9,581 nt of DNA from Omnitrophica bacterium GWA2_52_8 (lineage in GTDB: Bacteria; Omnitrophota; Omnitrophia; Omnitrophales; Aquincolibacteriaceae). The position numbers and the translations under genes were made by a program. The stretch is from positions 1-9,581 of the forward strand of contig MHFC01000130.1 in assembly GCA_001804025.1 (NCBI GenBank), read 5' to 3'. The notes beneath the pieces were generated by a model. It was not told the origin of the DNA, searched no databases, and worked only from the letters and a program-made list of their open reading frames with translations. This document shows, piece after piece, positions 5,783 through 7,708 of the stretch. Position 1 is the stretch's first letter, and every line of letters starts with the position of its first letter.

Positions 5783-6680
5783 CTCCGATACCCTCCTTGT
5801 TTGGGATCGCAACCGGAACCGCTTCTTCATGAGGCTCGGGTTTTTCAATGCCGCCTGCGGATAACATTTCTTCTATCGAAGGGATGATTTTTTCCAAAAG
5901 GCTGCTCTGCCGGAATGAATCCCTGCAGGCAAGACGGACATCCCGCTCCGGCTCAAAGGGTTTCTTGGCCGCGACGTTGAAGGCCACCGGCACCACGGTT
6001 TCAAATTTAAAAACATCCGCCACATCGTAGACAAAAGATTGCGGTTTTCCGGTATGAATAAAACCAATGGCCGGGGCATATCCGGCAGCGAGAATCGCAG
6101 CTTCGCAGACACCGTAAAGGCATGCCGTCGCCGCACTCAAACACCGATTCGGGATATCCCCGCTCTCCCATTTGTCATAATCGTAATTACGGAAGTTCCA
6201 GTCGACTCCGTAACGCCGGGCAATGAGCTGATACATTTTCCGGACGCGCGCCCCCTCGATCCCCCGAAGCTGTTCAATGCTGCGCCTTGCAGGAGGTTCC
6301 TCGCCAAAACGCATGAGGTACATTTTGCGGATCACCCTGAGCCGTGTCGCATCATCCAAAGCAAGCTTGGCCTGATAAAGCAGCCTGTCCGCCCGCGCTC
6401 CGCCGGGCTGGCCCGAGGCATAAAGCCGCACGCCACCTTCGCCCACCCAGATCAGAAGGCACCCCACACGCGCCGCCAAAACGACCGCCGCATGAGAAAC
6501 CCGCGTGCCAGGCTGCAAGAGAAGACAGGCGATGATTCCCACTGGAATGTGCGTGCGCACTCCGTTTTTATCAATCAGAACAAACGCGCCGTCCAGCACA
6601 TCAAGCTCCCCATACTCCAAAAAAAGCATGGAAACCCGTTCCTTCATCATAATCGGCCTGGGCGGCGGCAGGCCTCTCAT
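5763..6680 (-). CDS. cas1: Cas1, type I-E CRISPR integrase
   Basis: A 305-residue protein, the usual length for I-E Cas1. Cas1 is the catalytic subunit of the Cas1-Cas2 complex that joins prespacer ends to the first repeat. The metal-binding residues are present and almost identically numbered to E. coli: E142 in LRGIEGARV, H209 in AIGFIHTGKPQ and D219/D222 in SFVYDVADVF. Other family signatures are GELDVLDGAFVLIDKNG, HIPVG, ASGQPGGARADRLLYQAKLALD and DIPNRCLSAATACLYG. The ATG at 6678-6680 overlaps the rhuM stop as ATGA, with AAAGGA 10 nt upstream, so translation is coupled to rhuM. The extra C-terminal tail after about residue 280 (EKPEPHEEAVPVAIPNKEG) is low-complexity. The gene looks richer in GC than the effector genes upstream of rhuM. 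Confidence 0.97.
   Translation of the reverse strand: MRGLPPPRPIMMKERVSMLFLEYGELDVLDGAFVLIDKNGVRTHIPVGIIACLLLQPGTRVSHAAVVLAARVGCLLIWVGEGGVRLYASGQPGGARADRLLYQAKLALDDATRLRVIRKMYLMRFGEEPPARRSIEQLRGIEGARVRKMYQLIARRYGVDWNFRNYDYDKWESGDIPNRCLSAATACLYGVCEAAILAAGYAPAIGFIHTGKPQSFVYDVADVFKFETVVPVAFNVAAKKPFEPERDVRLACRDSFRQSSLLEKIIPSIEEMLSAGGIEKPEPHEEAVPVAIPNKEGIGDAGHRS
5791..5798 (-). promoter_or_regulatory. Ribosome binding site of cas2
   Basis: AAGGAGGG on the minus strand, 8 nt before the ATG at 5782 and inside the end of cas1. It fixes the cas2 start at 5782; in-frame codons as far up as 5848 would add residues unlike any Cas2. Confidence 0.85.
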
Positions 6681-7708
6681 TGACTCTTATCCTTTTTCTT
6701 TCCGGATAAAGATTTTTTCTTTTCCAGCACCCGCAGTTTCTTGACTTCCCGGTCGAAATCAGACTCAAAGCGCCTGTCCTGCGTTATACGGAAACTTTCG
6801 TAGTGTTTTTCGGCCAAAGCAACCGCGACATCGTGAGAAACTTTTCCCTTGCCTTGCAGAATGTCCTGCTCGTTAAATTTCAAAAATGCGTCCAGCCTTG
6901 CCGCCCAATCCCGCATATGCATCAAACGGCCTCGGCTCGCCTGAAACTCGGCATGATCCAGATACATGTCGACAATGTGATTGAGCTGTTTCAATTCTTC
7001 CTTCGATAGATAATTCTTGGCGATCCGGATATCGGAAGGCAATATCTTGCCTTTCGGAGCTTTCCGCCAGGTGGTCAATCCCATATGCGGCTCACTTTTA
7101 TCTGCCCGGGACGTGATAATTTCCGCGGCCGTCTTTCCGGTAATCGCGAAATGCAGCTTGTTCTGCACGGTGGCGAAGAATCTTTCCGTTTCCACTGAAC
7201 GAGGTGAATAATCAACCGATGTCGCGTAAATATCCGTAATCTTTTGATAAACCATGCGTTCGCTGGCCCGGATTTCCCTGATCTCTTCCAGCAATTCATC
7301 AAAATACCGTGCATCGAACTTCGAGCCTTTGATAAACCGGTCTTTATCAATCGCGAAACCTTTGAGAATATAGCTTTTCAGCCGGTCCGTCGCCCATGCG
7401 CGGAACTGGGTGCCTCTCGCAGTATTGACCCTGTAACCCACGGCAATAATGGCTTCAAGACTGTAATGCTTTGTTTTATATTTCTTGCCGTCCGGGGCAG
7501 TTATCGAGAATTCCTCGATAACTGATTTTTCATCCAATTCTCTTTCAGAGAAGCTATTCTTCAGATGAAGCGAAACGTTATCCACAGAACATTCAAATAG
7601 CATTGCCATCAATTTTTGCGTCAGCCAGACATTTTCCTTATCGAACAAAACGTCGATCCGGATCTTGCCGTCTTCGGTCTCATACATCGTCATCTGATTT
7701 GAATTCAT
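6677..7708 (-). CDS. rhuM: RhuM-family protein inserted between cas6e and cas1
   Basis: A complete 343-residue member of the RhuM family, named after a gene of a Salmonella pathogenicity island; its molecular function is not established. Family stretches in order: an N-terminal part like a helix-turn-helix (VWLTQKLMAMLFECSVDNVS, about 28-47), ELDEKSVIEEF, DGKKYKTKHYSLEAIIAVGYRV, RGTQFRAWATDRLKSYILKGFAID (about 95-125), a central helical part, and YESFRITQDRRFESDFDRE near the end, followed by a lysine-rich tail. The N-terminal pattern suggests DNA binding; that is inference. Start ATG at 7706-7708 has AGAGG (7716-7720) 7 nt upstream. It lies 10 nt after cas6e and overlaps cas1 by 4 nt (ATGA), so it is wired into the cas operon although it is not a core cas gene. 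RhuM genes are also met near restriction-modification genes, so a defence-linked or regulatory role is possible. Confidence 0.93.
   Translation of the reverse strand: MNSNQMTMYETEDGKIRIDVLFDKENVWLTQKLMAMLFECSVDNVSLHLKNSFSERELDEKSVIEEFSITAPDGKKYKTKHYSLEAIIAVGYRVNTARGTQFRAWATDRLKSYILKGFAIDKDRFIKGSKFDARYFDELLEEIREIRASERMVYQKITDIYATSVDYSPRSVETERFFATVQNKLHFAITGKTAAEIITSRADKSEPHMGLTTWRKAPKGKILPSDIRIAKNYLSKEELKQLNHIVDMYLDHAEFQASRGRLMHMRDWAARLDAFLKFNEQDILQGKGKVSHDVAVALAEKHYESFRITQDRRFESDFDREVKKLRVLEKKKSLSGKKKDKSQ

Follow-up and report, generated by a model that had tools for sequence, protein, structure and literature searches.

A rhuM gene in a recurrent slot upstream of cas1 in a type I-E CRISPR operon of an Omnitrophica bacterium

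The question raised by this locus is why a complete rhuM gene sits inside a type I-E operon of clustered regularly interspaced short palindromic repeats (CRISPR), directly between cas6e and cas1. The locus belongs to Omnitrophica bacterium GWA2_52_8, and the stretch analysed, hereafter the window, comprises 9,581 nucleotides (nt) of contig MHFC01000130.1 (assembly GCA_001804025.1, positions 1 to 9,581, forward strand). We favour, with roughly even confidence, the reading that rhuM sits in a recurrent slot directly upstream of cas1, which is filled by different and interchangeable genes across related type I operons, and that it is likely a plug-in defence gene. The original prediction, made from the letters of the window, had noticed the gene and its packing and missed that rhuM shares its place with other genes that fill it elsewhere.

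What that prediction says on the position, packing and completeness of the gene holds. The open reading frame (ORF) starts with ATG, encodes 343 amino acids (aa) without an internal stop and is complete and uninterrupted both in the ORF call and in an alignment with 51 relatives. Residues 62-312 match the Pfam family Virulence_RhuM (PF13310) with 351.3 bits against a cut-off of 33.7, and the PADLOC model PDC-S05 covers residues 3-330 (1.8e-142), while the NCBIfam profiles gave no name to the protein. The gene starts 10 nt past the cas6e stop, with a ribosome-site-like AGAGGA six nt ahead of the ATG, and its stop codon has ATGA in common with the cas1 start, as had been claimed. Through this overlap, expression of cas1 and cas2 could plausibly be coupled to translation of rhuM. 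The gene lies on the same strand as its neighbours and is flanked on both sides by genes of another defence operon; it fills the gap between cas6e and cas1, with no adjacent antitoxin gene of the kind found in type II toxin-antitoxin pairs. The host operon is a complete type I-E system: Pfam and NCBIfam profiles confirmed cas1e, cas2e and cas6e, and on the contig (C130; 29,655 bp) the operon continues through complete cas7e, cse2, cas8e and cas3 genes to contig base 15,098, cas3 being identified via its match to a solved Cas3. The genes cas3, cas8e, cse2, cas7e, cas5e, cas6e, cas1e and cas2e and the array are found at a single locus.

RhuM proteins are common, with at least 8000 matching candidates and a match in 25 of the 97 genomes searched as relatives, the genome of the window included. 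Of the 85 ORFs called around 53 RhuM loci, 52 were scanned and yielded six Methylase_S, five ResIII, four N6_Mtase and two IVP matches, the rest being mixed. Since no type I-E cas gene was found near 81 RhuM relatives, which had been chosen by their likeness to the window RhuM, we reversed the question and surveyed from the cas1 side what precedes this gene in other type I-E operons. Cas1e was searched in the phylum of the window (384 genomes, 8 matches at E 1e-3, its own included), in genomes carrying RhuM relatives (32 genomes, 5 at 1e-3) and in the phyla of four metagenome-assembled genomes (MAGs), from Desulfobacteraceae (247 genomes, 27 at 1e-40), Gallionella (398 genomes, 15 at 1e-120), Nitrospiraceae (148 genomes, 8 at 1e-120) and Verrucomicrobia (194 genomes, 1 at 1e-120). 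Besides, we searched the class of genome G655 (242 genomes, 21 at 1e-120), which was picked after a RhuM-Fic insert had been seen in G655, and added four named plasmid operons (183 plasmid records have a Cas1e match). The six weakest (L124-L129) of 28 Cas1e places in the Desulfobacteraceae-MAG phylum were left out of the survey and four distant matches from the window's own phylum (L087-L090) out of the slot analysis; four of six places were used from the RhuM-bearing genomes. Outside the resulting 72 operons also stand L196, with odd ORF calls, and L199 and L204, which have no readable cas gene upstream of cas1.

Of these 72 operons, 35 have a junction of 200 bp or more before cas1. Such a width occurs at 3 of their 342 remaining cas-cas junctions (cse2-cas7e in L132 and L188, cas5e-cas6e in L241). 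Without the draw from the class of G655, a wide junction before cas1 is found in 17 of 53 operons, the window and G655 included, and 18 of the 19 further operons from that class hold a slot gene or a remnant. Slot ORFs fill 29 of the 35 wide junctions, remnants four (L138, L235, L239, L241), and in two nothing was recognised (L134, L182); L182, with a 362-bp gap without same-strand ORF, is the exception in the Gallionella draw. The slot stays before cas1 where the upstream order ends in cas6e-cas7e-cas5e, and is there occupied in L142, L237, L238, L244 and L245 and empty in L146 to L149 and L234. Within the window's own phylum, there are four operons with close Cas1e proteins: three carry RhuM (the window), Bro-N (L156) and a short KilA-N ORF (L158, in which the frame of cas1, too, ends early), and the fourth, L157, has no slot gene.

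Judged from their sequences, the occupants form a limited, defence-type kit. Bro-N is found in 15 operons (in L156 its frame enters undetermined bases), and RhuM-Fic fusions in five, after cas6e in L137, L229, L240 and L242, after cas5e in L238 and in all of them directly upstream of cas1. Together with a sixth RhuM-domain case, the remnant L235, this answers with yes whether other genomes carry a RhuM-domain gene before cas1, a check that the original prediction had proposed, and its refuting condition, the absence of this order from all other genomes, does not apply. Fic occurs in two slots (L135, L229), YhcG/DUF1016 in L131 and with its N-terminal part only in L197, KilA-N in L158 and IVP-type genes in L140 and, below the Pfam cut-off, in L132 and L230. 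Toxin-antitoxin-type sets are present in L136, L141 and L198; the occupants of this kind are an HI1420-type antidote with an HI1419-like ORF (HI1419 below cut-off), BrnA with a nucleotidyltransferase and HEPN, and DUF5615 with DUF433, which we take to be a toxin-antitoxin pair. Genes can also stand in series, as Bro-N and RhuM-Fic in L240 and Fic and RhuM-Fic in L229. Series were observed elsewhere, too: Bro-N and RhuM-Fic in L280, two Bro-N and RhuM-Fic in L284 and, by eye, a Fic-like ORF ahead of Bro-N and RhuM-Fic in L281. Two slot ORFs, L238:3318-3854 (+, 178 aa) and L143:1073-1636 (-, 187 aa), match no NCBIfam profile and, above cut-off, no Pfam family.

Of the 29 slot ORFs, five (the window, L137, L228, L233, L242) have ATGA in common with cas1. 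In a further eight the end falls in the range from 8 nt within cas1 to 3 nt ahead of it, and in 16 it lies 15 to 246 nt ahead; start codons of slot ORFs were chosen by script. PADLOC models were matched by RhuM (PDC-S05), RhuM-Fic (PDC-S23), Bro-N (PDC-S13), KilA-N (PDC-S22), DUF1016 (PDC-S02) and Fic (SoFic), and by none of the IVP, HEPN and 178-aa slot proteins tested. The PDC candidates reportedly stem from a preprint by Payne et al. All five RhuM-Fic proteins keep HPFxDGNKR, which we regard as a Doc-type motif, and HxFx..(G/A)N, taken here as the Fic/Doc enzyme motif, is present in these five and in the two Fic slot proteins; the DOC_P1 model stayed below its cut-off in the two RhuM-Fic fusions tested.

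The similarity between related operons breaks at the slot edges, and therefore the slot gene was replaced as a unit. From the start of cas1 onward, L242, with RhuM-Fic, shares 90-100% identity per 100 nt with L243, which carries Bro-N, and there is no match ahead of cas1. Between L242 and L246, another Bro-N carrier, a similarity of 80% extends to 14 and 10 nt ahead of the respective slot ORFs, and with cas1 it resumes at 90%. The window DNA resembles other operons only from just inside cas1 onward, and its rhuM shares 79.6% DNA similarity with the rhuM of L030, confined to the ORF, the L030 neighbours being transporter genes. On the Cas1 tree, the fewest changes are nine for Bro-N and five for the RhuM domain, with remnants counted as present; since the tree was built quickly, leaves 29 of its 71 inner branches open and contains three long rows, we use it as a hint only.

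Which part of the operon the slot gene is inherited with can be followed best for Bro-N. Over 15 operons, Bro-N distances track those of Cas1 with a rank r of 0.70 (0.55 if the outlier L156 is omitted; p 0.0005, the lowest value possible with 2000 permutations), those of Cas2 with 0.41 (0.27 without L156) and those of Cas5, Cas6 and Cas7 with -0.19 to 0.16, a lack of correlation to which saturation of the Cas5, Cas6 and Cas7 distances may contribute. Cas1 distances do not follow Cas5, Cas6 and Cas7 either. An earlier Mantel run on tblastn pieces had given a Pearson r of 0.87 for Bro-N and Cas1; the figures used here come from its repeat with whole ORFs and ranks. Co-evolution with Cas1, the other check that had been proposed, is thus borne out for Bro-N. 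For RhuM-Fic, with five proteins, it is positive too, with a Pearson r of 0.77 with Cas1, but r is 0.89 with Cas5, and because the value for Cas5 is the higher one, no module preference can be read from it. The RhuM subtype of the window has a single representative, its RhuM being the sole full-length one among the 72 slots. As a separate observation, L142 and L143 have different gene orders in the Cascade upstream, with Cas1 proteins that differ by 3.6%, which looks as though a Bro-N-cas1-cas2 block had been joined to another Cascade.

The same families are found at the border of the adaptation genes in other CRISPR types. A search at 1e-40 detected Bro-N relatives in 48 of the 242 genomes from the class of G655, and among the matches listed we examined 30 loci with about 1.5 kb on either side. 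Twelve of these lie next to cas1e, another 14 contain type I-C-like cas7, cas4 or cas1 genes (in L279 this assignment rests on a cas4 fragment), while no cas1e or type I-C-like cas gene was seen within these flanks in the remaining four (L270, L283, L285, L286). In the type I-C-like loci, Bro-N lies between cas7 and cas4 (L264, L266, L271, L273) or between cas4 and cas1 (L265, L267, L282), and L280 has the order cas7c, Bro-N, RhuM-Fic, cas4. Five of the Cas proteins concerned were compared with solved structures and correspond to Csd2-family Cas7, Cas4 and Cas1, Csd2 being a marker of type I-C. For type I-B, an Arcobacter cloacae plasmid shows the order cas4, Bro-N, cas1b, cas2, a Sulfurospirillum relative (Cas1b 81%) has cas4, cas1b and cas2 without insert, and no gene separates cas4 and cas1b in two more distant operons; these three records were opened besides Arcobacter, of 162 plasmid records with Cas1b-like matches. 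Bro-N was found in ten plasmid records, and one of the five loci opened, that of Arcobacter, lies in a cas operon. Outside cas operons, a Bro-N gene stands beside a toxin-antitoxin-like nucleotidyltransferase-DUF86 pair in a Parabacteroides distasonis plasmid record (L251:2593-4274).

RhuM genes are also embedded in restriction-modification operons, namely between mod and res of type III systems (L033, L034) and beside hsdM (L038), and in a Methylophaga plasmid hsdS and hsdR are separated by a RhuM-Fic gene, the sole such case in a restriction-modification operon among the three records opened from 314 plasmid records with RhuM-Fic-like matches. Moreover, RhuM relatives are listed in 50 phage records, including satellite phages and the Wolbachia phage WO.

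Owing to the tie to Cas1, the main rival explanation gives the slot genes an accessory part in spacer acquisition, in which DNA-binding-type RhuM, Bro-N and KilA-N proteins would control or assist Cas1-Cas2, for instance through cas1-cas2 regulation or at the leader. Bro-N and KilA-N are domains with a role in DNA binding, and both the position where the adaptation genes begin, seen in types I-E and I-C and in a single I-B operon, and the divergence of Bro-N with Cas1, less with Cas2 and not with Cas5, Cas6 and Cas7, would suit such a function. However, the toxin-antitoxin-type sets, the Fic proteins and the predicted nuclease YhcG/DUF1016 suggest no common DNA-binding role, many related operons do without a slot gene, and RhuM or RhuM-Fic also occurs in restriction-modification operons and in phage and satellite-phage records; we regard this explanation as unlikely. 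A second possibility, which we consider improbable, is that the slot genes are selfish or neutral passengers, which would persist thanks to a junction tolerant of insertion and to frequent transfer of defence operons. The unrelated families, their exchange, the four decaying copies and the L030 rhuM, with its similarity limited to the ORF and transporter genes adjoining, all agree with passengers. Occupants of that kind would, however, hardly be expected to form such a narrow kit, to be present as gene or remnant in nearly all further operons from the class of G655 or to track Cas1 over long divergence, as Bro-N does, and the window rhuM has kept its full reading frame.

Rather unlikely, in our view, is an addiction or guard module, i.e. 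a toxin that Cas proteins hold in an inactive state and that is set free upon loss or inhibition of CRISPR, as in CreTA or PrrC. The window rhuM stands solo without its own antitoxin, as the accessible passages of PMC3506569 would predict, and both the co-expression packing and the intact Fic/Doc motif of the RhuM-Fic occupants fit. On the other hand, some slots carry antitoxin-type genes of their own, unlike the picture in those passages, and remnants beside readable cas1 genes show that the loss of a slot gene is survivable. There is also no repeat-like sequence near rhuM, the sole repeat core outside the array being that at 624-635, and a CreTA-like guard with a degenerate repeat was rejected, as there is no repeat core between 5387 and 9581. 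A chance insertion or assembly chimera in one genome is very improbable, for although a full-length RhuM before cas1 was seen in the window only, RhuM-Fic lies in the same slot in five other operons and any slot ORF in 29 of 72, the 10-nt and ATGA junctions are seamless and the window RhuM protein is listed on three contigs; a single chance insertion was rejected because the same slot is occupied in other genomes.

We therefore return to the plug-in defence gene, against which several points have to be set. The junction before cas1 is narrow in 13 of the 14 readable operons of the Gallionella draw and in the four plasmid operons opened, and a slot gene is therefore dispensable for type I-E function; the 13 operons of the Gallionella draw agree with the original claim that cas6e is normally followed directly by cas1, which fails in the Cas1 clade around the window. 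The four operons from RhuM-bearing genomes (L131, L132, L154, L155) have DUF1016, Bro-N with an IVP-like gene, or nothing in the slot; conversely, type I-E cas genes were found in the retrieved flanks of none of the 81 other RhuM-relative loci, and of the six closest RhuM contexts scanned, L030 and L031 lack a neighbouring defence gene. Full-length RhuM is limited to the window among the 72 slots, the other RhuM cases differing in their C-terminus; the motif check found no Fic/Doc motif in the window RhuM, no relative of solved structure was found for it, and the passages of literature covered hold no test of RhuM as defence. Finally, the evidence for co-inheritance comes from Bro-N, whose tracking of Cas1 would also fit a role in spacer acquisition, and includes the possibly saturated distances mentioned above.

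Nevertheless, an effector acting on the cell or on the invader is favoured, because of the overlap with genes embedded in restriction-modification operons, the six families matching PADLOC or SoFic models, the toxin-antitoxin-type sets and the intact RhuM-Fic motif, and of the roles proposed originally "companion defence gene" fits best. In such a scheme the slot gene would enter the operon as a single ORF, and its insertion would be tolerated at the border of interference and adaptation genes because no tightly pairing subunits are separated there. Close packing of starts and stops would lead to co-expression with cas1-cas2. The N-terminal part, common to RhuM and RhuM-Fic, may sense DNA or the state of infection, and the C-terminal part could be the effector, i.e. 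the Fic/Doc domain in the fusions and an uncharacterised domain in the window RhuM. This effector would be silent in healthy cells; once CRISPR immunity has been evaded or fails, it would bring the cell to arrest or stop the invader.

That genes of this kind are embedded in immune operons is already known, because PADLOC defence candidates exist that match RhuM and the majority of the slot families; the tie of the slot to the adaptation genes is what is new. The single-gene PDCs were discovered by "guilt by embedding" in immune systems and are mostly unvalidated; a slot before cas1, exchange or co-inheritance with adaptation genes was not found in the accessible passages of this work (PMC12988326). 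RhuM-domain ORFs also lie inside a cas operon between cas1 and cas9 in most Bacteroides fragilis strains of a published set, but there the CRISPR type (II-C) and gene order are different, and the case is known here from the available part of the printed account alone (PMC5704556). In restriction-modification operons, where RhuM-like genes are found together with PrrC, RhuM is likewise embedded in a multi-gene defence operon and was proposed as a toxin domain; in contrast to our case these are not CRISPR loci, and the passages available describe no slot (PMC3710099). More generally, immunity loci are described, in the part accessible, as carrying suicide genes without antitoxins that are possibly restrained by immune proteins (PMC3506569). 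CreTA, as far as its available description goes, is also an extra element guarding a CRISPR system, but consists of an RNA toxin with a repeat-derived antitoxin, whereas the window rhuM has no repeat-like sequence nearby. The literature within reach of our search, which most subscription papers, the preprint and supplements were beyond, yielded no description of a slot ahead of cas1 in operons of type I, nor of gene exchange there.

The layout of the window is collected in Table 1; on the minus strand the order is cas7e (part), cas5e, cas6e, rhuM, cas1e and cas2e, followed by the array. A scan of positions 5380-9581 for a separate cas1 promoter returned one promoter-like site, inside cas6e (8208-8181) and below the shuffle mean of 4.8, and such a promoter was rejected. 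Apart from the operon, an ORF at 557-3145 (+) combines a phage MuF C-terminal domain with a RadC-like JAB domain and overlaps the far end of the array. An isolated 12-nt core of the CRISPR repeat, CGCGGGGAACAT, at 624-635 (+), lies 2.2 kb off the array near the start of this ORF and is possibly a stranded array end. A tRNA-Arg gene (anticodon ccg) is located at 155-231 (-), adjoined by a 20-mer in two copies (41-60 and 102-121) that are 61 nt apart.

Table 1. Features of the CRISPR locus in the window.
Feature	Position	Strand	Basis
rhuM (PF13310; PADLOC PDC-S05), slot gene	6677..7708	-	Pfam and PADLOC profiles
ATGA overlap of cas1 start codon and rhuM stop codon	6677..6680	-	read from sequence
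cas6e-rhuM gap of 10 nt (7709-7718) and ribosome-site-like AGAGGA (7715-7720)	7709..7720	-	sequence
cas1e	5763..6680	-	TIGR03638, 383.8 bits
cas2e, 20-nt overlap with cas1, start codon from sequence	5465..5782	-	PF09707 / TIGR01873
cas6e	7719..8426	-	TIGR01907
cas5e	8416..9153	-	TIGR01868
cas7e, partial in window; 319 aa on contig, to base 10118	9159..9581	-	profile search
CRISPR array, 42 exact repeats, 61-nt spacing	2857..5386	+	repeat scan

For the biology of these lineages, we tentatively put forward, as a possibility towards which we do not lean, that their type I adaptation modules comprise a third, interchangeable sensor-effector component (Bro-N, RhuM, RhuM-Fic, KilA-N and others), which would travel with cas1-cas2 between Cascade types and subtypes and tie spacer acquisition to cell arrest or licensing. 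The natural swaps between L242 on the one side and L243 and L246 on the other are available for comparison, and the slot offers a testable rule, namely at which place in CRISPR operons extra defence genes embed and with which module they are inherited. If the slot gene acts with Cas1-Cas2, memory formation would be linked to the fate of the cell; should it be a stand-alone defence, new defences could be sought in the slot.

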